A stretch of DNA of 64,000 bases from a beta proteobacterium CB (GTDB lineage: Bacteria > Pseudomonadota > Gammaproteobacteria > Burkholderiales > Burkholderiaceae), in assembly GCA_000342265.1 (NCBI GenBank), contig CP004348.1, positions 434,001 to 498,000 of the forward strand. The letters run 5' to 3'. Numbering within the stretch: the first letter of the stretch is position 1; every line of letters starts with the position of its first letter. Under the pieces are notes generated by a model, which was given only the letters and a program-made list of their open reading frames with translations, was not told the origin of the DNA and made no database searches. The translations under genes and the position numbers were made by a program. Of the stretch, positions 25,737 to 39,304 are shown piece by piece.

Positions 25737-26555
25737 TTAAAAACCAAATGCCTTGCGGCTTTCATTAAACATGAAGGCTGCAAGCATAAACAACATCACA
25801 CCAAAAATGCGTTTGAGTTGAGTCACATTAAGTTTCCTAGCCATTTTTGCGCCGAGTGGGGCGGTGAATATGCTAACTGCCACAATGCAAAGCACTGCAG
25901 GCACATAAACAAATCCTAAAGATCCTGCTGGAAGATTGGGATTGCCCCAACTGCCATACATATAGCCGATCGTTGCTGCAGCAGCAATCGGAAATCCTAA
26001 GCCGGAAGAGCTTGCCATTGCAGTATGCGGTTTTACATTGCACCAAAGCATAAATGGCACCGTAATAAAGGCTCCACCTGCACCAACTAGGCTTGCAATC
26101 ACGCCTGTAAATGCTCCGAATGAAAAAAGACCAATAGAGCCCGGCAGCTCTCGCCCGGCTGTAGGCTTTTTATTAATGATCATTTGGATCGAGGTGTGCA
26201 CAATAAAAATGGCAAAGAATAGAGATAGCCAAGAGGTGTCAATGGCTTCAAAGATTTCACTGCCACCAACAAGGCTGCCAATAATTAGCCCGGGGCTGAG
26301 TGCAGCCACTAGCTTCCAGTCGATGGAATTGTGTTTGTGGTGCGCCCAAATAGCCGAGGTGGTTGTAAAAAGAATAGTTGCCATCCCAGTGGCAATAGCC
26401 ATATGCACGATGACATTTTGACCGAATCCTAAATGATTGAAGACCACGATCATGAAGGGAACCAAAATCATCCCACCACCAATACCAAGCAGTCCAGCAA
26501 GAAAGCCGGATATGCTCCCGCACAACATCAACATGAGAATATCGGCTATTGACAT
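25737..26555 (-). CDS. TauE/SafE family membrane permease
   Basis: 272 aa, about eight hydrophobic helices, with the repeated DUF81 motif: GFLAGLLGIGGGMILVPFM near the N-terminus and GVIASLVGAGGAFITVPFML in the second half. The family includes exporters of sulfite, sulfoacetate and other organosulfonates, but members have varied substrates and none can be assigned here. It lies just downstream of 6S RNA where many proteobacteria carry the fau (ygfA) gene. Confidence 0.9.
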   Translation of the reverse strand: MSIADILMLMLCGSISGFLAGLLGIGGGMILVPFMIVVFNHLGFGQNVIVHMAIATGMATILFTTTSAIWAHHKHNSIDWKLVAALSPGLIIGSLVGGSEIFEAIDTSWLSLFFAIFIVHTSIQMIINKKPTAGRELPGSIGLFSFGAFTGVIASLVGAGGAFITVPFMLWCNVKPHTAMASSSGLGFPIAAAATIGYMYGSWGNPNLPAGSLGFVYVPAVLCIVAVSIFTAPLGAKMARKLNVTQLKRIFGVMLFMLAAFMFNESRKAFGF

Positions 26556-27414: not shown

Positions 27415-28176
27415 CTAGCGGGGCAGCGCCACCCAATCGCTCCCCAGTTTCTCCAAACGAATGCGCCCATCAAATAGTTCAATCAGGGCTTGGTGCGTAC
27501 TGGTATCTCTGCATGATCCTTGAAAGTGCAGTTTGCCCTTATTGAGCATGACAAGATGGTCTGCTCTTAGAGCTAGGTGGATTTCATGTAGCACGGTGAC
27601 TAGGGTCTTTCCCTCGGAAAGCAAGCCCTGTTGCCACTTCAGAAAATCCGCCTGGTGAGGAGGATCTAAATTTGCCAGCGGCTCGTCCATGAGTAGGATT
27701 TCAGAATCTACCGCCAAAATTCTAGCCAATAAAACTCGCTGACGTTCTCCGCCCGAAAGTTGTTGCAATTGACGTGTGCGCAAGTGCCATGCATCAGTTT
27801 GCTTTAATGTCGCTTCAACTCTCGAGTGGTCTGATAGCGAGGGTAGGTGTAGCCACCCTTGGTGAGGTAATCGTCCCAGCATAACGGTGTCATAAACACT
27901 CAATCCATTGGTCAGATCATTTAATCCCATCGAGCCTTGGTCCAGCCAAGCAATTTTCCTGGCCAACTCTTTGCGAGACAGTTTGCTTGTCTCAACCCCA
28001 CCAATGGTGATGGACCCAGTAAACTTGAGCAAGCCAACCATGGATTGCAAGAGGGAGGACTTGCCAGCCCCGTTAGGCCCAACAATGCTTGTCCACTGAC
28101 CTTCGGGAATATCGATATCTAAATCACTGAGGATAGGAGATGTACCTCGATAGATAGTTAGCTGCCGAGTTTTCAT
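27415..28176 (-). CDS. btuD: Cobalamin ABC transporter ATP-binding protein
   Basis: 253 aa ABC ATPase of the FecE/BtuD class: Walker A VGPNGAGKSSLLQ, signature QLSGGERQRVLLARI, Walker B EILLMDEPLANLD, and the switch His in VTVLHEIHLAL. Its start overlaps the permease stop (ATGA). Because it is the last gene of a riboswitch-led operon with a B12 receptor, binding protein and permease, B12 rather than siderophore uptake is the likely role. Confidence 0.92.
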   Translation of the reverse strand: MKTRQLTIYRGTSPILSDLDIDIPEGQWTSIVGPNGAGKSSLLQSMVGLLKFTGSITIGGVETSKLSRKELARKIAWLDQGSMGLNDLTNGLSVYDTVMLGRLPHQGWLHLPSLSDHSRVEATLKQTDAWHLRTRQLQQLSGGERQRVLLARILAVDSEILLMDEPLANLDPPHQADFLKWQQGLLSEGKTLVTVLHEIHLALRADHLVMLNKGKLHFQGSCRDTSTHQALIELFDGRIRLEKLGSDWVALPR

Positions 28177-29150
28177 GAATGCCCACCCATGGGAGATTTT
28201 CTGAGCAGGATCAAGAGATAGATGCCCCCGAGCACTGCCGTCACAATACCAACCGGTATTTCAATTGGGGCAAAGAGAGTGCGAGCAATGAGATCGGAGC
28301 CGAGCAGCAAGATGCCGCCACCTATGCAAGAGAATACAAGTTGAGAGCGCTGGTACCCACCTGAGAATTTTCTAACTAAATGGGGTGCAGCTAAACCTAC
28401 AAAAGCGATTAATCCGGTTTGTGCTACGGCACAACCCGTTGCGAGCGCAAGAATGCCAATGAATAGAAGGCGAAGTTGATCAAGCGGCAAGCCTAAAGTG
28501 CGTGCCGTATTTTCTCCTAGGGATAGTGCGTCAAGCACAGGACTGATTGAGAGCGTAAGCGCTAAACAAATGGCTAGGGTGATACCCATGACATTTACCC
28601 CTGACCAACTCAGTAGGGTCGTGTTGCCGAGCATGAAGGATTGAATACTTTGAAAAAGATCAGGGCGAATAAAGGTAAATAAAGAATTTGCAGCACCAAG
28701 AATCACGCTAATCACCACACCAGATAGCAGGAGACGAAGCGTGTTCTGATACCCGCCCGCTAGGACGAGAGACGCTACTACCCCAATTAGCGCGCCAATA
28801 AATGCACCGCCATTTAGCCCAATGATTTCTAGCCAAGAGTTTCCTAAGTATGCAAAACACAACATGCTAGCAACGCCTAGTAACGCTCCTGATGCGCTGC
28901 CTAATAAATACGGATCGGCTAAAGGATTGCGAAAGAGGCTTTGAGCAATTCCGCCTGCAAGCCCCAATAGGGCTCCAGCAAAAAATGCGCCTAATGAGCG
29001 TGGTAGTCGAATATCAAACACGATTGCTCGATCGAGTCCAAATAAATCCCAATGAATACCAGTGCTGCCAAGAATGGTCCCCAGCAAGATTAGCAAAAGG
29101 CTCAGGGTGATTAGGCCAATAAACTTAACTAGAAAATGATTGCTGTTCAT
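28173..29150 (-). CDS. btuC: Cobalamin ABC transporter permease (FecCD family)
   Basis: 325 aa with roughly ten membrane helices and the FecCD motifs DIRLPRSLGAFFAGALLGLA, GIAQSLFRNPLADPYLLG, LIAFVGLAAPHLVRKFSG and GSDLIARTLFAPIEIPVGIV. It forms the inner-membrane channel for B12. ATG at 29150 is preferred over an in-frame start at 29183, because it overlaps the last base of the btuF stop and begins the hydrophobic N-terminus. The context is btuB-btuF-btuC-btuD. Confidence 0.93.
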   Translation of the reverse strand: MNSNHFLVKFIGLITLSLLLILLGTILGSTGIHWDLFGLDRAIVFDIRLPRSLGAFFAGALLGLAGGIAQSLFRNPLADPYLLGSASGALLGVASMLCFAYLGNSWLEIIGLNGGAFIGALIGVVASLVLAGGYQNTLRLLLSGVVISVILGAANSLFTFIRPDLFQSIQSFMLGNTTLLSWSGVNVMGITLAICLALTLSISPVLDALSLGENTARTLGLPLDQLRLLFIGILALATGCAVAQTGLIAFVGLAAPHLVRKFSGGYQRSQLVFSCIGGGILLLGSDLIARTLFAPIEIPVGIVTAVLGGIYLLILLRKSPMGGHS

Positions 29151-30043
29151 TACCGAGATAATGACATCTTCTCTTGGATGCACTCAGAAATAATCAGCGC
29201 TGCTTCCCCCATGCGAGGTCCTGGACGCACCAAAATATCATTTTGATCAGCTGTAAAGGTGCAGATACGCTTCTTGGCTAGCGCTGGAATCGATTTCCAT
29301 CCTGGACGATTCTGGATATCTCGTACTGTAGATTCGGTTAGCAGAATGACTTCCGGCTTTGATTGGACAACAAACTCTGGATTAATCTTGGGAAAAGGCC
29401 CTAAAGAGTCGGGAATGATATTGACTAAGCCTAAGCGCGTCAGAATTTCTCCAATGAATGAATTTTTTCCTGCTGCAAAAGGCGCTGGATTTACTTCAAA
29501 GTACACGCTAATTTTTTTTTCTGGTGATGGGAGTTGCTTGCTAGCACGCATGATCTCTTGTTGAATCTGATTCCAGACTCGAGTGCTCTCAGAGCTGCCT
29601 AAAACAACATCAAGCTTCTGAAGAGCGCGCTCCTCATCTCTCATTGATTTAATGTCAAGGGCAAAAGTACTGATGCCCAATCCATTTAATCGTGCAATCA
29701 CAGGAGAGGCGTTCTCAAGCAAAACAACATCCGGCTTGAGCTGAACAATACGCTCAATATTGATATCTCCCATACCACCCAGTTTAGGTAAGTTTTGAAT
29801 GGATTTCGGCCAATTGGAAAAGGAATCAATGCCTACCAAGGTGGAGCACTTGCCAAGAGCGCAAACAGATTCCGTGAGTGATGGCAGGAGACTGATTACA
29901 CGCTGAGGTGGTTTGTTGAATGTAACAATAATCCCTCTATCATCGATAGCTGAAATGGGGGTGGCAAGAATCGCCAGGGAGAAGCCCAGTAAAAACAAAG
30001 CAACCCCGATCGCTAAATAGCGGGAGCGATTCGAAGGTTGCAT
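29150..30043 (-). CDS. btuF: Cobalamin-binding periplasmic protein
   Basis: 297 aa. ATG at 30043 gives a good signal sequence (short basic start, then YLAIGVALFLLGFSLAILA). The mature part has the helical-backbone metal/cofactor receptor pattern: PPQRVISLLPSLTESVCALG, VGIDSFSNWP, LGGMGDINIERIVQLKPDVV and LTESTVRDIQNRPGWKSIPA. Class III binding protein delivering B12 to BtuCD. A longer version starting at 30202 would overlap btuB and is rejected. Confidence 0.92.
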   Translation of the reverse strand: MQPSNRSRYLAIGVALFLLGFSLAILATPISAIDDRGIIVTFNKPPQRVISLLPSLTESVCALGKCSTLVGIDSFSNWPKSIQNLPKLGGMGDINIERIVQLKPDVVLLENASPVIARLNGLGISTFALDIKSMRDEERALQKLDVVLGSSESTRVWNQIQQEIMRASKQLPSPEKKISVYFEVNPAPFAAGKNSFIGEILTRLGLVNIIPDSLGPFPKINPEFVVQSKPEVILLTESTVRDIQNRPGWKSIPALAKKRICTFTADQNDILVRPGPRMGEAALIISECIQEKMSLSR

Positions 30044-30068
30044 GTCGTTAAATTCTTTCTTTGAGAGT

Positions 30069-32171
30069 TTAGAAGTTATATTTTGCGCTAACAAAATATG
30101 AGCGCCTATCACTTGGGTAGTAAAAATAATTTGGTGCCATGCCGCCGTTAGCCTTTGTAATCCATGCATAGCCCCCAGTTGTTCCATACAGGGAGTTGCC
30201 AATATTTTTGATTGTGAATTTAGCTTCGAACTTATTTAGAGAATAGTTGAGGTATGCGTCTGCAACTGCATACGAAGGCATTACGTTTAGTGAGTTGTAG
30301 TCGCTTAGGGCGGCATCATAATGCTGGTTGCCAACATAATTAACTACACCACCTATCGACCACTCTCGATTGACTAGATAGTTGGCTCTGGCGTTCAGCA
30401 GTAAGTCCGGGGAGAGTGCTACGGAAGTCCCAGCATACGGGCCACTTGCATACAGCGACTTTTGGAATTTACCACCTGCTGAAACTGTCAGTTTGTTTGT
30501 GATATTTGATGATCCATCGAGTACGATACCTCTCCTATTGATATTAAACTCTGAATTAATGTTAAGCCCGCTATCTAGGTCATAGCGGATCTCATTTTGA
30601 GTGATTGATGAGAACATCGATCCATTTATATTGACGATGCTTGACAACCAGTTGCCACCAATCTCATAACTTTGTGTAGTTTGTGGTTTAAGTATTCCGT
30701 TAAAAGATCTTTTATATGTAATTGGGTCCCATCCCCAAAACTCATCAATATTCGGGAATCGATAGGATTGATTCCATTTGATGTAGAGCTTTTGATTATT
30801 GAGGTAGCTGTAATTAAGTGCTAAGTCCCCAGCATTTGCTGAATAGGTTTGACTGCCAGTTAGTGCACCATTATTTGAGGTGAGACTATTATCGTTAGCA
30901 GTAGCACTCTGTGTTTGGCGCCTAAATCCACCGCTAAAGTCAATGTTATTTAGTAGCCCTAATTTTGCAATTCCATAAATCGATTGATTTAATAGATTTG
31001 CTGATTGCAGGCTTTGATAAAGCCCATTCGGATTTGTAATTTTCCCTGCAGCATTCATGGCTGAGTAGGTGGTAGGGGAGTATGCGTTGTATCCACCTTG
31101 ACTTGATTGATTAAATTCATAACCAAAAATAGTGCTACTGGATTTGCCAAATGTTGATTTCAGGCGTGGACTAAGATTCATGGTCCAGCCATTCAAGTTG
31201 CCATTACCCGATCCATAGTTCCCAACAGAAATTGCGCTAGAACTGTCGTAATAAGGGGTGTTGAAAAAAACAGATTTATTTGAGTAGTATCCATCTACTT
31301 CGGCAATGTTACCGCCTTGAAAATCTTTGGTTCCTCCGAAACGGATGCCCGAGTTGCTTGTTGATGAATTTGATCCAACATTATTAAATTTCGCTGCTTG
31401 AGGATCGCCTGAGCCAACTTGCCCAACTGTGGCCCCAGGATTTTGTGCATTTGTATATGCATAGAAAAAATCTGTATAGATTTTGTCCAGTCCGCCAAAT
31501 GACTGTGTAACTTTTGCATCCATTGCATAGGCATTCGCAGCAGAGTTTTGCCTCCACCCTTGAGTATTCGAGGTGTTTGCAGTTACTTGGTATGTTGTCT
31601 GACCAATGCTATCTCTGACAATCGCATTTGCAATTGCAGTTCCAAAGCTTCCATAAGTCAAGCTAGCCTGGTTAAGTTTGCTGCGATTGCCATTAGTAAT
31701 AATATTGATTACACCTCCAACGGCGCCATTTCCATATTGAACGCTGGCGCCACCTTGAAGGATTTCAATCCTCTCGATGGAGTCTATGGGGATAGACTCC
31801 CAATTCACCCCTGAAGAGTCAATTGGATTAATTCGTTGACCATCAACCAAAACCAGCGTGTTGCTATTGGCTGTCGGGCCGAAACCGCCAATATCTACAG
31901 TAGCGTCTAGATTTAATTGGCCGCCATTGGTGCTCCTGACATTCAATCCGCCAATTTGCGATAGAACATCTGGAATATTGTTTGAGCTTGAGTTGGAAAT
32001 TTCTTCTCGTGTAATCACTTTGACGTTTGCCGGAACCTCATTGAGGTTTTCTTCAAAGCGAGATCCCGAAACAATTACTGTTGATTGTGAGTTTTGGGCT
32101 AGGACGTTAAAGGTTAATGCTGCACCGCAAAATAGGGTGACGAGTGTTTTGCTGCTGAACTGCTGTTTCAT
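30069..32171 (-). CDS. btuB: TonB-dependent vitamin B12 receptor BtuB
   Basis: 700 aa outer-membrane receptor. A signal peptide (TLVTLFCGAALTFNVLAQ) precedes a TonB-box region (STVIVSGSRFEENLNEVP), a plug domain (IPDVLSQIGGLNVRS, then RIEILQGGASVQYGNGAVGG) and a 22-strand barrel ending in the aromatic YFVSAKYNF typical of outer-membrane proteins. The cobalamin riboswitch in its leader marks the substrate as cobalamin. It starts the btuB-F-C-D operon; btuF begins 25 bases after its stop. Confidence 0.93.
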   Translation of the reverse strand: MKQQFSSKTLVTLFCGAALTFNVLAQNSQSTVIVSGSRFEENLNEVPANVKVITREEISNSSSNNIPDVLSQIGGLNVRSTNGGQLNLDATVDIGGFGPTANSNTLVLVDGQRINPIDSSGVNWESIPIDSIERIEILQGGASVQYGNGAVGGVINIITNGNRSKLNQASLTYGSFGTAIANAIVRDSIGQTTYQVTANTSNTQGWRQNSAANAYAMDAKVTQSFGGLDKIYTDFFYAYTNAQNPGATVGQVGSGDPQAAKFNNVGSNSSTSNSGIRFGGTKDFQGGNIAEVDGYYSNKSVFFNTPYYDSSSAISVGNYGSGNGNLNGWTMNLSPRLKSTFGKSSSTIFGYEFNQSSQGGYNAYSPTTYSAMNAAGKITNPNGLYQSLQSANLLNQSIYGIAKLGLLNNIDFSGGFRRQTQSATANDNSLTSNNGALTGSQTYSANAGDLALNYSYLNNQKLYIKWNQSYRFPNIDEFWGWDPITYKRSFNGILKPQTTQSYEIGGNWLSSIVNINGSMFSSITQNEIRYDLDSGLNINSEFNINRRGIVLDGSSNITNKLTVSAGGKFQKSLYASGPYAGTSVALSPDLLLNARANYLVNREWSIGGVVNYVGNQHYDAALSDYNSLNVMPSYAVADAYLNYSLNKFEAKFTIKNIGNSLYGTTGGYAWITKANGGMAPNYFYYPSDRRSYFVSAKYNF

Positions 32172-32606: not shown

Positions 32607-33224
32607 ATGACCGTATTAGATAAACACCCCGAAAAAAACCTGATCCGTTTGCAGCTTAGCCAAAATTCAGTGCTAAAAAGCTTGGATGCTGCTGCAATGG
32701 CTGATTTAGAGCGCCATTTGGAGATCTCAGACCTCAAAAAATCAGAAATCTTGCTCCATCAAGGCGATCACCAGATGGAGCAGTATTTTGTATTGGATGG
32801 CATTCTCAAGCGAATTGTCTCAAGTGCTGATGCAAAAGAGATGATCTTGCGCTTTGCAATTGAAAAAGATATTGAGACTAGCTATGCGGCTTGGCGACTC
32901 AAGACGGCTGCTCCCTACAGTATTGCCTCGGTTACTAAGGCGCGCGTTGCCCGTATGCCCCTTAAAAAGTGGGCTGAGTTTTTAGATGCTCACAAGCCTC
33001 TCAAGGAAAGCTTTGAGTTTGAGGTCATGCGCCTGATGAGCGAAATCATGGCTCACACCATTACCTTGCATATGCTTGATGCGCCAGGCCGTGTAGAGCG
33101 GTTTTTGCGTAAATACGAAGACTTATTTGAACTTCTTCCTAAAAAAGAGCTGGCTGCTTACCTCAATCTCTCCCCAGAGACTTTAAGTCGCCTCAAAACG
33201 AAGCATAAAGAACTCTTTGTTTAG
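32607..33224 (+). CDS. Crp/Fnr family transcriptional regulator
   Basis: 205 aa. A cyclic-nucleotide-binding-like beta-roll (EILLHQGDHQMEQYFVLDGI) is followed by a long dimer helix and a C-terminal helix-turn-helix ELAAYLNLSPETLSRLKTK. The recognition helix carries E-x-x-S-R, the triad FNR uses to read TTGA half-sites. The protein contains no cysteine at all, so it cannot hold an FNR-type iron-sulfur cluster. It directly precedes oxc in the same direction, and a perfect TTGAC-N4-GTCAA palindrome lies 36 bases after its stop, so it probably controls the oxalate genes. The ligand is unknown. Confidence 0.92.
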   Translation: MTVLDKHPEKNLIRLQLSQNSVLKSLDAAAMADLERHLEISDLKKSEILLHQGDHQMEQYFVLDGILKRIVSSADAKEMILRFAIEKDIETSYAAWRLKTAAPYSIASVTKARVARMPLKKWAEFLDAHKPLKESFEFEVMRLMSEIMAHTITLHMLDAPGRVERFLRKYEDLFELLPKKELAAYLNLSPETLSRLKTKHKELFV

Positions 33225-33260
33225 CTGGAAATCCTAATTGTTTCTAGATTTCAGGGGAAA

Positions 33261-33274
33261 TTGACCGAAGTCAA
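33261..33274. promoter_or_regulatory. FNR-type operator TTGACCGAAGTCAA
   Basis: Perfect palindrome TTGAC-CGAA-GTCAA, the architecture of Crp/Fnr-family sites that use TTGA/TCAA contacts. Its centre (33267.5) is exactly 41.5 bases upstream of the start point predicted from TAAGAT at 33297-33302, the spacing of a class II activated promoter. The adjacent upstream gene encodes a regulator with the matching E-x-x-S-R recognition helix. Confidence 0.75.
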
Positions 33275-33296
33275 TGATGAACCTTATCCCCGAGCC

Positions 33297-33302
33297 TAAG
33301 AT
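33297..33302 (+). promoter_or_regulatory. Predicted -10 element of the oxc promoter
   Basis: TAAGAT agrees with TATAAT at four of six positions, and no -35 hexamer is present; the FNR-type site occupies that position. The inferred start point is about 33309, giving a 127-base untranslated leader. Confidence 0.5.
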
Positions 33303-33308
33303 TCATCT

Positions 33309-33435
33309 CAGCCTCAACGGGAACGCTTTTGCTAACCCGTGGCACTACTAATAACTTAATTGGAGACAGTTAGCGAAAGCTAAATTGCGCTAATCGGGCC
33401 TTACGTCCGGGTGGTGTAATTAACTATAAATTTCT
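33309..33435 (+). promoter_or_regulatory. Structured 5' leader of oxc
   Basis: No reading frame of note. Several hairpins are possible: ACGGG (33317-33321) with CCCGT (33336-33340); TTAGC-GAAA-GCTAA (33370-33383); and, as a rival to the latter, TTAGCG (33370-33375) with CGCTAA (33388-33393). GCTAA also occurs at 33331-33335, and ACCCG (33335-33339) could instead pair with CGGGT (33408-33412). No Shine-Dalgarno sequence precedes the oxc ATG closely. I do not recognise a known riboswitch class here. Confidence 0.5.
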
Positions 33436-35145
33436 ATGACAACAGATAATCAAAATACCCAAGTCACTGATGGCTTTCATCTCGTCATTGATGCTTTAAA
33501 AGCAAATGACCTAGACACTATTTTTGGTCTCGTTGGTATTCCAATTACCGACTTGTGCCGTTTAGCTCAGGCAGAAGGATTGCGCTTCATTGGTTTCCGT
33601 CACGAGCAGCACGCTGGTAATGCTGCTGCGATTGCAGGTTACATGACCCAAAAGCCTGGCATCTGCATGACTGTGTCAGCACCTGGTTTCTTGAATGGTT
33701 TGACAGCGCTGGCAAATGCGACTGTGAACTGTTTCCCAATGATTTTGATTTCTGGCTCAAGCGAGCGTGAAATCGTTGACTTGCAACAGGGTGATTACGA
33801 AGAGATGGATCAGCTCAATGCTGCTAAGCCATATTGCAAAGCTGCATACCGTATCAACCACATTGAAGATATCGGCATTGGCTTTGCACGTGCTATTCGT
33901 GCAGCTGTTTCTGGTCGTCCAGGCGGCGTGTATCTGGATTTGCCTGCGCAGTTGTTAGCTCAAACAATGCCTGTTGAAGAAGCTAAGAAATCTATCTTCA
34001 AAGTAATCGATCCAATTCCACGCCAAATTCCTGCTGCTGATGCAGTGGAGCGTGCATTGAATGTGTTGAAGGGTGCTAAGCGTCCATTGATCCTATTGGG
34101 TAAAGGTGCCGCTTACGCTCAAGCAGATGCTGATATCCGTGCATTGATTGAGAAGTCTGGTATTCCTTACTTGCCAATGTCTATGGCTAAAGGTTTGTTG
34201 CCAGACAATCACCCACAATCTGCTTCTGCAGCCCGCTCATTTGTATTGGCTGAAGCTGATGCAGTGATGTTGGTTGGTGCTCGCTTGAACTGGTTGCTTG
34301 CGCACGGTAAAGGCAAGACATGGGGTAAAGATCCTAAGAAATTTATTCAAATTGATATTCAGGCAAATGAAGTTGACAGCAACGTACAAATTGATGCGCC
34401 ATTGATTGGCGATATTGGCTCATGCGTTGGCGAGCTCTTGAAGGGTATCGCTGCTGTTCCGAAGCCAAGCGCTGAATGGATTGGCGCAATCAATGAGAAG
34501 AAAGATAAGAACTTGGCGAAGATGGCTGAGACTCTTGCTAAAGAAGCTTCACCAATGAACTTCCATGGTGCATTGCGTGCGATCCGCGATGTGATCAAGA
34601 AAAACCCAGATGTGAACTTGGTCAACGAAGGTGCAAATACTCTCGACTATTGCCGTGCGATCGTTGATATGTACAAGCCACGTAAGCGTTTTGACTCTGG
34701 AACATGGGGCATTATGGGCATTGGTATGGGTTATGCCATCGGTGCGGCTGTAACGAGTGGCTTGCCTACAGTTGCAGTTGAGGGTGATAGTGCATTTGGT
34801 TTTAGCGGCATGGAATTAGAAACAATTTGCCGTTACAACTTGCCAATCACTACAGTTGTTTTCAATAACAACGGTGTTTACCGTGGTACTGATGTGAATC
34901 CAACTGGCGGTGAAGATGTTGCTCCAACAGTGTTCGTTAAAGATGCGCGTTACGACAGGATGATTGAGGCATTTGGTGGTGTTGGTTACTACGTAACTAC
35001 TCCAGCTGAATTAGAGGCAGCTTTGACTAAGGCGATTGCTGAAGGCAAGCCAGCTTTGATTAATGCGGTGATTGACGAGACGGCTGGTACAGAGAGTGGG
35101 CGTTTAACTAACTTGAACCCATCAACTGCTGCTGGTAAGAAGTAA
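33436..35145 (+). CDS. oxc: Oxalyl-CoA decarboxylase
   Basis: 569 aa thiamine-diphosphate enzyme that converts oxalyl-CoA to formyl-CoA and CO2. The ThDP-activating Glu is in [16 protein letters not shown] (Glu57, compare Glu56 in Oxalobacter); the Mg/ThDP motif is [10 protein letters not shown] through [11 protein letters not shown]. Segments [20 protein letters not shown] and [18 protein letters not shown] are typical of OXC. Arg is almost always CGT or CGC (one AGG), suggesting high expression. frc follows 73 bases later with a strong AAGGAG site. Control by the upstream Crp/Fnr-type regulator is likely. Confidence 0.97.
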
Positions 35146-35218
35146 AGCCTAGGAAATACCTAATTTTTTTAAGAACGAATTTAGTAGCAAATAAGAAATA
35201 CTTTAAGGAGAATCAAAC

Positions 35219-36469
35219 ATGACTAAACCATTAGACGGTATTCGTATCATTGACTTCACACACGTACAGGCAGGTCCTGCATGTACTCAGTTACTGGGCT
35301 TTTATGGCGCAGACGTGATCAAAGTTGAGCGTCCAGGATCTGGTGACGTAACTCGTAGCCAGTTGCGCGATATCCCAGGTGCAGATGCTTTGTATTTCAC
35401 TATGCTGAACGGTAATAAGCGTTCATTGACATTGGATACTAAGACACAAGAAGGTAAGGAAGTTTTAGAGAAGATGATCAAGACATCTGACGTCATGGTT
35501 GAGAACTTCGGCCCAGGCGCTTTGGATCGTATGGGTTTTAGCTGGGCGCGTATCCAGGAATTGAATCCAAAAATGATTCTTGCTTCTGTAAAAGGCTTTA
35601 GCGATGGTCACTCATACGAAGACTTAAAGGTATATGAGAACGTTGCTCAGTGTGCTGGCGGTGCCGCATCTACAACCGGTTTCTGGGATGGTCCTCCAAC
35701 AGTTTCTGCTGCTGCTTTGGGCGATAGCAACACTGGTATGCATTTGGCTATTGGTATTTTGACTGCATTGATGCAGCGTCAAAAAACTGGTAAAGGTCAA
35801 AAAGTATCTTGCTCAATGCAAGACGCTGTATTGAACTTGTGCCGCGTTAAATTGCGTGACCAACAGCGTTTGGACAAAATTGGTTACCTCGAAGAGTACC
35901 CACAGTACCCACACGGTACATTCTCTGACGTAGTTCCACGTGGCGGTAACGCTGGTGGTGGCGGTCAGCCAGGATGGGTGTTGAAGTGTAAGGGTTGGGA
36001 AACAGATCCAAACGCATACATCTACTTCACCATTCAAGGTCATGCTTGGGAGCCAATTACTAAAGCTTTGGGCAAGCCAGAGTGGGCAACTGATCCAGCT
36101 TACATGACTGCTGAAGCGCGTCAAGACAAGATCTTTGACATCTTCGCAACGATTGAAGATTGGCTCAAAGACAAGACCAAGTACGAAGCTGTGGATATCC
36201 TCCGTAAGTTTGATATTCCATGTGCACCAGTCCTCTCAATGAAAGAGTTGGCTGCGTCACCAGACTTGCGTAAGAGTGGTTCAATTGTTGAAGTTGACCA
36301 TAAAGTACGTGGCAAGTATTTGACAATCGGTAGCCCAATTAAGTTCTCTGATCTAGAGATCGAAGTGAAGCCATCACCAGTTTTGGGTGAGCACACTGAT
36401 GAAGTATTGTCAGACCTTGGCTATAACGCTGATGATATTGCTAAGTTGCATGCAGCAAAAGCGGTTTAA
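35219..36469 (+). CDS. frc: Formyl-CoA:oxalate CoA-transferase
   Basis: 416 aa class III (CaiB/BaiF) CoA-transferase that moves CoA from formyl-CoA to oxalate, releasing formate. The catalytic Asp169 sits in [11 protein letters not shown] at exactly the residue number of the Oxalobacter enzyme, Gln17 is in [12 protein letters not shown], and the mobile glycine loop is [10 protein letters not shown] (near 245-252). Position 48 is Gln rather than the Trp of Oxalobacter FRC. Its SD, TAAGGAG, is strong. The gene is followed by a clear intrinsic terminator, so oxc-frc form one unit. Confidence 0.96.
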
Positions 36470-36498
36470 TAAGAATAAGTATTTTTTGTTGTGATCTT

Positions 36499-36527
36499 AA
36501 AGGCGCTCTAAGGAGCGCCTTTTTTTA
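36499..36527 (+). terminator. Rho-independent terminator after frc
   Basis: AAGGCGCTC-TAAG-GAGCGCCTT, a nine-base-pair stem, is followed by a run of T residues. It ends the oxc-frc transcript 30 bases after the frc stop. Confidence 0.92.
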
Positions 36528-36564
36528 TTCACCTGGATAGAACAAAAGTCTTTAGACTAATAAC

Positions 36565-36987
36565 ATGAAAACTACTGTAGATTTATCGCAATTAATCGAC
36601 TGTATCGGTGATGCTGTGATTGTTGCTGATGCCCATGAAAAGATTGTTCTTTGGAATGCAGCAGCCACTAGAATTTTTGGCTACTCAGAAGAGGAGGCGC
36701 TTGGCAATACTTTGGATCTGATTGTTCCTGAGCGTCAACGCCAAAAGCACAATGAAGGCTATAGTAAATCCATGAAAACAGGTACTACACGTTATGGCAC
36801 TTCATTATTAAAAGTGCCAGCTAGGCATAAGGATGGACGCACTTTATCCATAGCCTTTACTGTAGGCATGCTCTTTGATGAAAAAAACCAAGCGAGTGGC
36901 GTAGCGGCAGTGATTCGGGATGAGACGGAGCGCTTTGCTGAAGAAAGGGCGCTTAAAAAGCGACTTTTTGACCTCGAAAATCAATAA
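36565..36987 (+). CDS. Stand-alone PAS domain protein, FixL-like sensor fold
   Basis: 140 aa, essentially one PAS domain (residues about 5-125) plus a short C-terminal helix; there is no kinase, cyclase or DNA-binding output. The stretch VLWNAAATRIFGYSEEEALG and then PERQRQKHNEGYSKSMKTG align without gaps with the heme-PAS of FixL as I recall it, placing His62 on the FixL proximal heme ligand. The two FixL distal-side Args appear as Lys and Leu. The same His also occurs in non-heme PAS domains, so heme binding is only a possibility. The gene sits between the frc terminator and a second CoA-transferase gene. Confidence 0.85.
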   Translation: MKTTVDLSQLIDCIGDAVIVADAHEKIVLWNAAATRIFGYSEEEALGNTLDLIVPERQRQKHNEGYSKSMKTGTTRYGTSLLKVPARHKDGRTLSIAFTVGMLFDEKNQASGVAAVIRDETERFAEERALKKRLFDLENQ

Positions 36988-37122
36988 ATTTGTACCCAAA
37001 TAGTTAATATTAGGCATCCCTTGCGGGATGTGCCCAATAAGTAGGCATGCCATATTGCAGCGCAATCCGTCGCTGGTAAAATTGGCTTAATTCAAAATTT
37101 CAATCTTATTAGGACTTTAATC

Positions 37123-38370
37123 ATGGCAAAAGCATTAGAAGGAGTCAAAATCCTTGACTTCACGCACGTTCAATCTGGCCCAACCTGTACTCAATTGCTC
37201 GCTTGGTTCGGAGCTGATGTAATCAAAGTAGAAAAATCAGGTGAGGGTGATGCCACTCGTGGTCAGCTACGTGATATCCCAGATGCGGATAGTTTGTATT
37301 TCACAATGTTGAATCACAACAAGCGTTCAATCACTGTAAATACTAAAACTCCAAAGGGCAAAGAAATTTTGGAGCGCTTGATTAAAGAGTGCGATGTTCT
37401 TGTTGAGAACTTTGCTCCTGGCGCATTAGATCGCATGGGTTTTTCTTGGGAACGCATTCAAGAGCTCAATCCCATGATGATTATGGCTTCAGTTAAAGGT
37501 TTTGGTCCTGGCCCTTATGAAGACTGTAAGGTTTACGAAAACGTAGCGCAGTGTGCTGGTGGTTCAGCTTCCACTACAGGTTTTGATGATGGCCCTCCGA
37601 TGGTGACTGGTGCCCAGATTGGTGATAGCGGCACCGGTTTGCATTTGGCGTTAGGAATTGTGACTGCACTGTATCAGCGCACGCACTCTGGTCGCGGTCA
37701 AAAAGTGTTGGCAGCAATGCAAGATGCGGTATTAAATTTATGTCGTGTGAAGTTGCGTGATCAACAGCGCTTAGAGCGAGTTGGTCTGATGCAAGAATAT
37801 CCACAGTTTCCGAATGGTGAGTTTGGTGATTCTGTACCCCGTGCTGGTAATGCCTCCGGCGGTGGTCAGCCAGGCTGGATTGTGAAATGTAAGGGCTGGG
37901 AAACAGATCCCAATTCTTACATGTACGTCATCGTACAAGCCCCCGTCTGGGAGGCGATTTGCAAGGTAATTGATCGCGAAGATTGGATTACGGATGTGCG
38001 TTTTGCATCGCCGATGGCTCGCTTGCCACACCTGATGGAAATTTTCGGTGAAATTGAAAAGTGGACAATGACCAAGACAAAGTTCGAAGTCATGGATATC
38101 CTGAATAAATACGACATCCCTTGCGGCCCAATTTTGTCGATGAAGGAAATTGCAGAAGAGCCAGCATTGCGTGCTACTGGAACTGTTGTTGAGGTGGATC
38201 ACCCAATTCGTGGCAAATACCTCACTGTTGGTAATCCGATCAAAATGTCTGATAGCCCAACAGATGTAACTCGTTCACCATTGCTAGGTGAGCATACTGA
38301 TGAGATCCTAAGTGAACTAGGCTACTCAACTGATGAGTTGATCAGTCTTCGTCACGATAAGGTGATCTAA
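37123..38370 (+). CDS. Second formyl-CoA transferase-like CaiB/BaiF CoA-transferase
   Basis: 415 aa, closely similar along its length to the frc product at 35219 ([35 protein letters not shown]). Catalytic Asp168 is in [11 protein letters not shown] and the glycine loop reads [10 protein letters not shown], with Ser replacing one Gly. Position 48 is Gln as in the paralog. It probably acts on oxalate with a formyl or other acyl donor. It has its own upstream region (135 bases after the PAS gene) and is followed one base later by the formyltransferase gene, implying a joint role. Confidence 0.9.
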
Positions 38371-38371
38371 G

Positions 38372-39304
38372 ATGCGGGTTGCGCTGATCGGGAGTGCGGA
38401 TTTTGGTAAGGCGGCATTAGAGGCTTTTTTAGATCGCGGCGATGAAGTCGTAGCTGTGTTTTGTCCGCCAGACAATCCAAAGTCAACGAAGCCTGAGGTG
38501 TTTAAAGAGGCGGTCATTGCAAGAGGTTTAACTCCCTTGCAATTTCCCTCTCTCAAGAGCCCAGAAGCAGCGCAAGCAATGATTGATAGTAAGGCTGATA
38601 TCTGTGTCATGGCCTATGTGCTTCAGTTCGTACCGCAAGAGCTTTGCAAGATACCCAAGCATGGCACGATTCAATACCACCCTTCTTTATTACCCAAGTA
38701 CCGTGGCCCTAGCGCCATTAATTGGGCGATCGCTTTGGGCGAAGAAAAAACAGGCTTGACCATCTTCCGCCCATCGGATGGCCTGGATGAAGGCGAAGTG
38801 ATCTTACAAAAAGAGCTTGCTATTGGCCCTGATGACACCCTGGGTAAGATTTATTTCGACCATCTTTTTCCCGTCGGCGTGAAGGCGCTTCTAGAGGCTG
38901 CTGATCTTGTAGTTGCCAACAAGCATCAAGAAGTTGTTCAAGATGAATCAAAAGCGAATTACGAAGGCTGGTTTGGTGTTGACGCTGCTCAAATTCATTG
39001 GGCTACTCATATTACTCAGATCTATAACTTGATTCGTGCATGTAACCCTGCCCCTGGTGCCTGGACTAAGTTCGGTGAGCAAAAAGTACAGATCTACGAT
39101 TGCCATAAGCACATAGCGGCTACTTTTGGTTCAGTAAAAGGTAAGCCTGGTGAAATCACACAAATTACTTTGGATTCATTCTTCGTTACTTGCCATGGCG
39201 GGCAAATTGAAGTCCTGAAAGCGAAGGGCCCCGCAGGCAAAGTAACAGGCGCTGAATTGGCTAAAGAGTTGAACCTAGAAGTAGGTCAGTTCTTTGCGCT
39301 GTAA
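38372..39304 (+). CDS. Formyltransferase/10-formyl-THF hydrolase-like protein
   Basis: 310 aa. An N-terminal formyl transferase domain (about 1-180) and a C-terminal Fmt-like domain (about 200-305) resemble the hydrolase domain of 10-formyltetrahydrofolate dehydrogenase more than ordinary Fmt: YHPSLLPKYRGPSAINWAI, DGLDEGEVILQKE and PGAWTKFGEQKVQIYD. The catalytic pair His103 and Asp139 is present. The third position, Asn in GART and Fmt and Ile in the dehydrogenase domain, is Gln101 here. It lies one base after the second CoA-transferase gene, so transfer of a formyl group between formyl-CoA or formate metabolism and folate is plausible but unproven. A separate fmt gene is expected elsewhere. 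Confidence 0.85.
   Translation: MRVALIGSADFGKAALEAFLDRGDEVVAVFCPPDNPKSTKPEVFKEAVIARGLTPLQFPSLKSPEAAQAMIDSKADICVMAYVLQFVPQELCKIPKHGTIQYHPSLLPKYRGPSAINWAIALGEEKTGLTIFRPSDGLDEGEVILQKELAIGPDDTLGKIYFDHLFPVGVKALLEAADLVVANKHQEVVQDESKANYEGWFGVDAAQIHWATHITQIYNLIRACNPAPGAWTKFGEQKVQIYDCHKHIAATFGSVKGKPGEITQITLDSFFVTCHGGQIEVLKAKGPAGKVTGAELAKELNLEVGQFFAL

Follow-up and report, generated by a model that had tools for sequence, protein, structure and literature searches.

In the genome of beta proteobacterium CB, we analyzed an oxalate gene island on contig CP004348.1 (positions 434,001 to 498,000 of the forward strand; this whole stretch of 64,000 nucleotides is hereafter called the window, and positions are given in its own numbering). 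The last gene of the island, for which the working name fmtL was coined, encodes a stand-alone formyltransferase-fold protein that, judging from its sequence and surroundings, probably moves a one-carbon group between formyl-coenzyme A (formyl-CoA) and folate. We consider the chances somewhat better than even that fmtL represents a new activity, a formyl-CoA:tetrahydrofolate (THF) N10-formyltransferase, which may run in either net direction and would be used where a thiamine pyrophosphate (TPP) lyase makes formyl-CoA. The narrower reading of a stand-alone formyl-CoA/THF formyltransferase with net flow most likely towards folate, for which we infer the reaction, the direction, and the use, has in our view about an even chance. 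The grounds are the gene identities by family score, the conserved neighborhood, the conserved residues, and co-occurrence. An earlier note on this DNA had proposed a coupling between formyl-CoA and folate; of this, the tie of fmtL to formyl-CoA metabolism held up beyond the genus, and folate genes were often found nearby. The association with oxc and frc extends further, and is more specific, than the earlier note could show. Formyl transfer between formyl-CoA and THF is the reading with the best support; its direction and use are less settled.

Co-occurrence of fmtL with oxc and frc

An order-wide sample of 200 Burkholderiales genomes was searched, with fmtL called at E 1e-50 or better and oxc (oxalyl-CoA decarboxylase) called over its model cut-off. 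The former was found in 41 genomes and the latter in 36: both genes occurred in 34 genomes, fmtL only in 7, oxc only in 2, and neither in 157 (Fisher p 4e-29, related genomes being treated as independent). Counted by family, the corresponding table was 9/2/0/40 (Fisher p 2e-8; 51 families, taken from the highest family label printed, with listed genomes only for the negatives). The earlier note had tied its proposal to an association of the gene with oxc and frc (formyl-CoA:oxalate CoA-transferase) in other genomes, and this association was found, 34 of the 36 oxc-bearing Burkholderiales genomes also carrying fmtL. The two exceptions, G119 and G158, are genomes of 6.8–7.0 Mb from the same family.

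A wider phylum sample of 299 genomes yielded only seven with fmtL. Four of these belong to the own genus, and in the other three fmtL is 42–50% identical; two of the latter (G245 and G292) had oxc, frc, and fmtL in a row. Polynucleobacter genomes carried fmtL in 121 of 151 cases, and one of 72,556 plasmid records held a relative at E 1e-50. Partial fmtL matches were seen in Polynucleobacter genomes G595, G586, G584, G504, and G564, with an internal stop in two of them; ongoing loss or assembly ends are possible explanations.

The neighborhood was compared in 80 named loci, the best 80 of 589 confirmed stretches and about half of them Polynucleobacter-type, in which neighbor genes were called by tblastn matches and a codon-position score. 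A frc gene (>45% identity) was present in 74 of them and oxc (>50%) in 57; frc lay upstream on the same strand in 70, and within 60 bases in 56 of these. Among the six named loci without such a frc match, L085, L086, and L093 stop short of the place that frc occupies in relatives such as L080, L102 begins at fmtL, and L106 carries a frc fragment (42%); the sixth, L074, is discussed below. When only the named loci longer than 20 kb were considered (n = 41), frc was matched in all 41 and oxc in 36. The five without oxc were L105, which has another lyase, and four loci of Methylobacterium. The island has two frc copies, and a frc-type match near fmtL was found in 31 of 34 loci, every one scoring higher with frc2, the copy next to fmtL, than with frc1.

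A second lyase in place of oxc

The seven Burkholderiales genomes with fmtL but no oxc all had a frc-family gene adjoining fmtL. In six of them another TPP enzyme occupied the place of oxc beside the frc-type gene, and in five of these six it was adjoined by a crp-type gene. The replacement enzyme shared 26–27% identity with oxc where measured (L152, L153, and L154). The best PDB match of the L152 enzyme (genome G092) was the 2-hydroxyacyl-CoA lyase (HACL) 7pt3 with 282.7 bits, which we take to be the formyl-CoA-releasing lyase, followed by 8vzk, named oxalyl-CoA decarboxylase, with 280.5 bits. Release of formyl-CoA by enzymes of this type is described in the available text of PMC7176365. The HACL-like enzyme was detected in 8 of the 200 Burkholderiales genomes, never together with oxc, and six of the eight (G036, G048, G081, G092, G128, and G132) had fmtL as well. 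One of the two lyases was thus present in 40 of the 41 genomes with fmtL; in the remaining one, G103, the contig (6.3 kb) ends before that place. Because the HACL-like lyase replaces oxc in six of the seven genomes, formyl-CoA rather than oxalate is likely the shared factor of the fmtL clusters, although the substrate of the HACL-like enzyme is itself presumed.

Sister clusters holding a HACL-like TPP enzyme, a CoA-transferase, and fmtL were located at L152:6046-18525, L153:3862-8825, and L161:5169-10142, and in L162, L164, L154, and L105. Most of them also hold a crp-type regulator and transporter genes.

Family assignment and residues of fmtL

A domain search found PF00551 and PF02911 alone in fmtL, and no carrier, aldehyde-dehydrogenase, or enoyl-CoA-hydratase-like domain. 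The best PDB matches were 1s3i and 2bw0, hydrolase domains of 10-formyl-THF dehydrogenase (FDH), with 164 bits, compared with 131 bits for the best methionyl-tRNA formyltransferase (FMT); this agrees with the resemblance to the FDH hydrolase domain that had been pointed out before. HypX was detected as a relative at E 9e-10.

Both Pfam domains are common to fmtL and FMT. Unlike FMT, fmtL scored 153.7 bits against TIGR00460, under the cut-off of 201.5, and a separate FMT over the cut-off occurred alongside it in 39 of the 41 fmtL-bearing genomes. The own genome has its FMT at G000:C1:2033573-2034511 (273 bits). In the panel of 43 genomes, made up of these 41 together with G119 and G158, FMT was over the cut-off in 41, and the two negatives (G052 and G144) are 84% complete. 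A role as the FMT of the cell was rejected on the grounds of the low score and the separate FMT genes, which also weakens the Met-tRNA formyltransferase alternative of the earlier note. The match to the deformylase model PRK06027 was weak (24 bits, cut-off 223), and a separate PurU is located at G000:C1:663778-664602. Recycling of the PurU kind was rejected as the sole explanation of fmtL, since the own genome already has PurU.

For the residue comparison, 35 fmtL and 30 FMT proteins were picked from 159 parsed proteins (30 FMT), and one FDH row was added. By alignment, the catalytic triad H103/S105/D139 (His106-Ser108-Asp142 of FDH) was present in all 35 fmtL proteins, as were the folate-site residues F86, R111, G137, L138, D139, and Y197. 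Twelve residues conserved in fmtL agree with FDH and occur in no more than 1 of the 30 FMT proteins: G12, F86, P104, S114, W118, F132, Y161, P167, L179, E198, G199, and W231. The position of FDH Ile104, two before the catalytic His of the HxSLLP motif (Q101 in fmtL), was Gln in 33 and Cys in 2 of the 35 proteins and never Ile; across all 129 fmtL rows parsed, repeats included, it was Q in 125 and C in 4. According to the part of PMC4388273 available, replacement of FDH Ile104 by Asn, the residue of FMT, ArnA, and GART, leaves <10% of hydrolase activity. A transferase role is therefore favored for fmtL, because this position holds Gln or Cys.

FDH (ALDH1L1; PDB 1s3i, 4qpd) is the closest relative of solved structure, with the same His-Ser-Asp triad, and the phosphopantetheine thiol that serves as acceptor in the whole enzyme is chemically like CoA. 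Unlike FDH, fmtL is a stand-alone protein of 310 aa with Gln or Cys for Ile104 and is found in oxalate and lyase clusters. For another relative, the N-terminal domain of HypX (HoxX), an exchange of formyl between 10-formyl-THF and CoA has been both proposed and reported; fmtL differs in having no enoyl-CoA-hydratase-like domain, and its CoA would be free and not tightly bound. The triad Ser is kept in fmtL, whereas HypX is described as using Asp80 there in the accessible portion of PMC6802093.

The public annotations seen label fmtL as methionyl-tRNA formyltransferase. By its sequence, fmtL is a distinct subfamily, misannotated and uncharacterized in the literature found; no description of an fmtL-type gene in oxalate clusters was found in those portions of the open-licence literature that were consulted.

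Folate genes associated with fmtL

Formate-THF ligase (Fhs) was found in 35 of the 41 Burkholderiales genomes with fmtL and in 48 of the 159 others; G048, scored as negative, has an Fhs fragment at a contig end. Taking the best Fhs match of each of the 35 genomes, the distance to fmtL was at most 15 kb in 20 genomes and larger on the same contig in 4, and the two genes lay on different contigs in 11. The full clusters of L092, L112, L152, and L155 follow the order Fhs, TctC/TctA transporter, crp, lyase, frc, and fmtL, with formate dehydrogenase adjoining Fhs in each.

The three Polynucleobacter-type genomes of the sample, G000, G031, and G076, had no match to Fhs. For this reason fmtL could be the only route of formyl-CoA carbon into folate in these three genomes. 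PurU was found in all three and elsewhere in the 43-genome panel in G119 and G158 only. PurU and Fhs were mutually exclusive in this panel, the five PurU-bearing genomes having no Fhs match.

The most telling single context was found on a Paracoccaceae plasmid, CP031587.1 (L171), at about 59–90 kb, where oxc, frc, fmtL, and fhs stand in a row. Its fmtL is annotated fmt_2 and is 39% identical to that of the window. Formate dehydrogenase, ppc, sucCD, and a regulator are annotated before oxc, and TctBA, ketopantoate reductase, glyA2, a “soluble hydrogenase subunit,” hprA, and folD after fhs; of this set, glyA, the genes for an aminotransferase and a 2-hydroxyacid dehydrogenase, and folD lie 8–14 kb beyond the oxc-frc-fmtL-fhs row. 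The oxc, frc, and FolD products were over their family cut-offs. The “hydrogenase subunit” is an aminotransferase that scored 593 with the aspartate-glyoxylate aminotransferase model (cut-off 650), hprA was under all cut-offs, and the ketopantoate reductase had no model match at E 1e-20. The sucC product was over the cut-off for succinate-CoA ligase and under that for malate-CoA ligase. Judged by gene content, the set looks like genes for a serine-cycle-like assimilation of oxalate.

Proposed reaction and alternatives

We propose that Oxc, or the 2-hydroxyacyl-CoA-lyase-like enzyme in other genomes, would release formyl-CoA, and that fmtL would pass its formyl group to N10 of THF, yielding 10-formyl-THF and free CoA. 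H103-S105-D139 would act as in the FDH hydrolase domain, much as in HypX. Frc would recycle the remaining formyl-CoA on new oxalate, and the freed formate would go to formate dehydrogenase. Formyl-CoA is a higher-energy compound than 10-formyl-THF, and net flow to folate would be favored for that reason; one-carbon units would then be supplied without ATP cost. The N-domain of HypX is reported to transfer formyl from 10-formyl-THF to CoA (available parts of the review PMC12134894; proposed from a structure in PMC6802093), and the FDH hydrolase domain, in the whole enzyme, is described in the latter text as handing formyl to the phosphopantetheine thiol. By analogy, fmtL would perform this type of exchange with free CoA.

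Several observations weigh against this proposal. The formyl-CoA spent on folate takes the CoA donor away from Frc, and fmtL is not needed for one-carbon supply in 35 of the 41 genomes, because Fhs can already make 10-formyl-THF from formate there. Partners are missing in some places: L074 is a true exception without frc or any other such partner despite 10 kb upstream and 4 kb downstream; the Methylobacterium loci L096, L100, L103, and L109 have frc, fmtL, and an antiporter-like protein of the major facilitator superfamily (MFS) and no oxc within 10 kb; in G042 fmtL adjoins oxc with no frc within 12 kb; and in G465, the third phylum-sample genome outside the own genus, fmtL adjoins Fhs, and the 14 kb read there contain no oxc and no frc. 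Conversely, G007 and G170 have the HACL-like lyase without fmtL. Four HACL-like proteins had the acetolactate synthase model NF004516 as their top NCBIfam match (476–514 bits, cut-off 587) and scored 336–380 bits with the lyase model NF058623 (cut-off 600), so that no curated cut-off was reached. Eight residues of fmtL are unlike both FDH and FMT (K13, D24, M80, V83, P113, P134, E140, and F162), and two pterin-side, water-mediated contacts of FDH are changed, D138 to T, S, or N in most proteins and T143 to E in 34 of 35. However, T and E also stand at the corresponding positions of two PurU proteins (stretch DLDEGPII, register read by eye); therefore, the changes do not speak against folate.

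A discrepancy with published results concerns growth. In the available text of PMC5018217, Polynucleobacter asymbioticus, P. duraquae, P. yangtzensis, and P. sinensis are given as not assimilating oxalate, and the accessible part of PMC3308952 says the same of P. asymbioticus. All of the island is present in P. sinensis strain MWH-HuW1 (locus L045), and P. duraquae has a protein 91% identical to fmtL. For several species of Polynucleobacter, published results thus contradict growth on oxalate. Since the listed species are reported not to assimilate oxalate, the island does not make it a carbon source in those tests; energy, detoxification, and one-carbon supply are possible uses of the island.

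Four other explanations were weighed. It is unlikely, in our estimate, that fmtL is a formyl-CoA hydrolase (EC 3.1.2.10) that, with or without THF as a carrier, would convert surplus formyl-CoA to formate and CoA for formate dehydrogenase. This EC number has no associated gene according to the accessible text of PMC10192776, the same triad hydrolyzes in FDH (PMC4388273, in part), and at E 1e-150 a match to formate dehydrogenase alpha was present in 41 of the 43 genomes of the panel, 39 of them exceeding the cut-off. Such an enzyme would hardly account for the folate-site residues kept in every fmtL protein or for the transferase-like amide that mostly stands in place of the hydrolase Ile, and it leaves the Fhs, FolD, and GlyA neighbors unexplained.

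Rather improbable, yet together with the hydrolase one of the two main rivals, since Frc has to be started with formyl-CoA, is operation in the opposite direction. Here fmtL would make formyl-CoA from 10-formyl-THF and CoA, with Fhs amounting to ATP-driven synthesis from formate, and would start or refill the Frc/Oxc cycle after formyl-CoA loss, such as through reduction of oxalyl-CoA to glyoxylate. HypX runs in this direction (PMC12134894), and the need for priming has been argued for E. coli, with the acetyl-CoA:oxalate CoA-transferase YfdE as the proposed primer (PMC3720670), as far as the available portions of both sources go. The clustering of Fhs with fmtL, which are direct neighbors in G465 and on CP031587.1, is consistent with it, whereas the three Polynucleobacter-type genomes, having no Fhs match, are not. 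Moreover, free-standing catalysis should favor folate, given the higher energy of formyl-CoA. It was also considered that frc2 may act in priming, using another CoA donor; both frc copies score alike with TIGR03253.

We judge it very unlikely that fmtL is a 10-formyl-THF hydrolase that recycles THF, i.e., a stand-alone FDH hydrolase domain, as the earlier note had allowed. The closest solved structures are FDH hydrolase domains and the 12 residues listed above are common to FDH; however, the own genome already has PurU, Gln or Cys takes the place of Ile104 in all 35 proteins, a futile ATP-burning cycle would be expected in the genomes with Fhs, and the tie to makers of formyl-CoA is left unexplained. 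An N-formyltransferase for an amine or other small molecule (ArnA/FMT-like), unrelated to formyl-CoA and clustered for other reasons, is highly improbable: the family contains many amine formyltransferases, but fmtL has Gln or Cys for the Asn of FMT, ArnA, and GART, reaches neither the ArnA nor the FMT cut-off, and has no identified conserved neighbor from amine metabolism, though such genes were not searched for.

Organization and regulation of the island

The source genome is a single contig of 2.05 Mb whose closest named relatives are Polynucleobacter. The gene order given in the earlier note was reproduced in full, with all six genes on the plus strand (Table 1), as was the one-base gap between the frc2 stop, ending at 38370, and the fmtL ATG at 38372. 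Like yfdU/yfdW of E. coli and frc-oxc of C. necator, the island has oxc and frc over curated cut-offs; compared with these textbook Oxc/Frc sets, it adds a second frc, the PAS protein, and fmtL. The two Frc proteins are 64% identical and score alike, and by the TIGR03253 score both are members of the formyl-CoA:oxalate CoA-transferase family. In many related loci, a homolog of the regulator (53–98% identical) lies next to oxc or to the gene of the HACL-like lyase, and tblastn gave no match to the PAS protein in several relatives, e.g., L049, L050, and L068.

Table 1. Genes and putative control elements of the island (32607..39304) in window positions.
Feature	Positions	Strand	Evidence
Crp/Fnr-type transcription regulator, 205 aa	32607..33224	+	PF00027, 30.7 bits (cut-off 27.5)
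FNR-type palindrome TTGAC-N4-GTCAA, TTGACCGAAGTCAA, between regulator and oxc	33261..33274		Pattern scan
oxc, oxalyl-CoA decarboxylase	33436..35145	+	TIGR03254, 984.6 bits (cut-off 739.4)
frc1, formyl-CoA:oxalate CoA-transferase family	35219..36469	+	TIGR03253, 724.3 bits (cut-off 504.2)
Terminator-like hairpin after frc1, 10 pairs then T run	36499..36522	+	Hairpin scan
Small stand-alone PAS-domain protein, 140 aa	36565..36987	+	PF00989, 55.8 bits
frc2, second formyl-CoA-transferase-family protein	37123..38370	+	TIGR03253, 734.3 bits (cut-off 504.2)
fmtL, stand-alone formyltransferase-fold protein, 310 aa	38372..39304	+	PF00551 and PF02911

The palindrome is the sole match of its pattern in the window (0.06 expected) and is likely a site of a Crp/Fnr-type regulator. 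In 60 of 66 loci, the looser pattern TTGA-N6-TCAA lay no more than 300 bases before oxc or the HACL-like gene; in simple base shuffles, this pattern turned up in 0.31 loci on average. It was present in 31 of 31 Polynucleobacter-type loci, in 29 of 35 other rows, and in 5 of 7 HACL-like rows; two of the rows counted, L104 and L158, appear to be one place. Its position upstream of both lyase genes suggests that a single regulator type controls both kinds. A search for a wider FNR-type regulon in the own genome gave three places, the stricter pattern being no commoner than a reversed control. A second FNR-type palindrome lies at G000:C1:701801-701814 (L168), between a divergent gene for a class III CoA-transferase-like protein and a TctC-like receptor gene (read by eye).

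The hairpin separates oxc-frc1 from PAS-frc2-fmtL, and for this reason the island may consist of two transcription units. The region contains 11 terminator-like sites, compared with 7.0 in shuffles, and this one has the longest stem. In a strict perfect-stem scan, 17 of 38 Polynucleobacter-type loci showed a hairpin of this kind.

As the earlier note had remarked of the island, no oxalate:formate antiporter was apparent: tblastn with one query at E 1e-4 found no antiporter-like MFS protein in the window, and a search of the same kind found no TctA of the type that adjoins fmtL elsewhere. A TauE/SafE-family transporter at 25737-26555 (minus strand) is about 50% identical to one directly upstream of fmtL in L080, an arrangement repeated in L082, L083, and L088, and it is a possible transporter for the island. 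A cytidylate-kinase-like protein that carries a BON domain (14309-15139 in L080, also in related loci) recurs in these clusters, placed between TctA and the crp-type gene. Immediately upstream of the island, at 27415-32171 on the minus strand, genes for a TonB receptor, a periplasmic binding protein, an FecCD permease, and an ATP-binding cassette ATPase form a set that looks like a vitamin B12 or iron uptake system.

Implications for oxalate and one-carbon metabolism

Glyoxylate carboligase (E 1e-150) was found in 5 of the 41 genomes with fmtL, including the own genome and G132, which was counted from two partial matches below the cut-off, and in both genomes with oxc but no fmtL (G119 and G158). 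This distribution suggests that glyoxylate carboligase and fmtL are alternative routes for oxalate carbon, the class with oxc only consisting of two genomes.

Formate is activated both as formyl-CoA and as 10-formyl-THF, and the textbook oxalate pathway links these two forms only via free formate and ATP. If the proposed activity is true, a direct bridge between them would explain the use or replenishment of formyl-CoA, and a conserved, misannotated gene would become the candidate for a formyl-CoA-consuming step that has no gene. Together with Fhs, fmtL could convert formyl-CoA to ATP and formate, or formate and ATP to formyl-CoA. It would also offer an ATP-free entry to folate for synthetic one-carbon pathways based on formyl-CoA, and on CP031587.1 it would supply a route of oxalate assimilation resembling the serine cycle.

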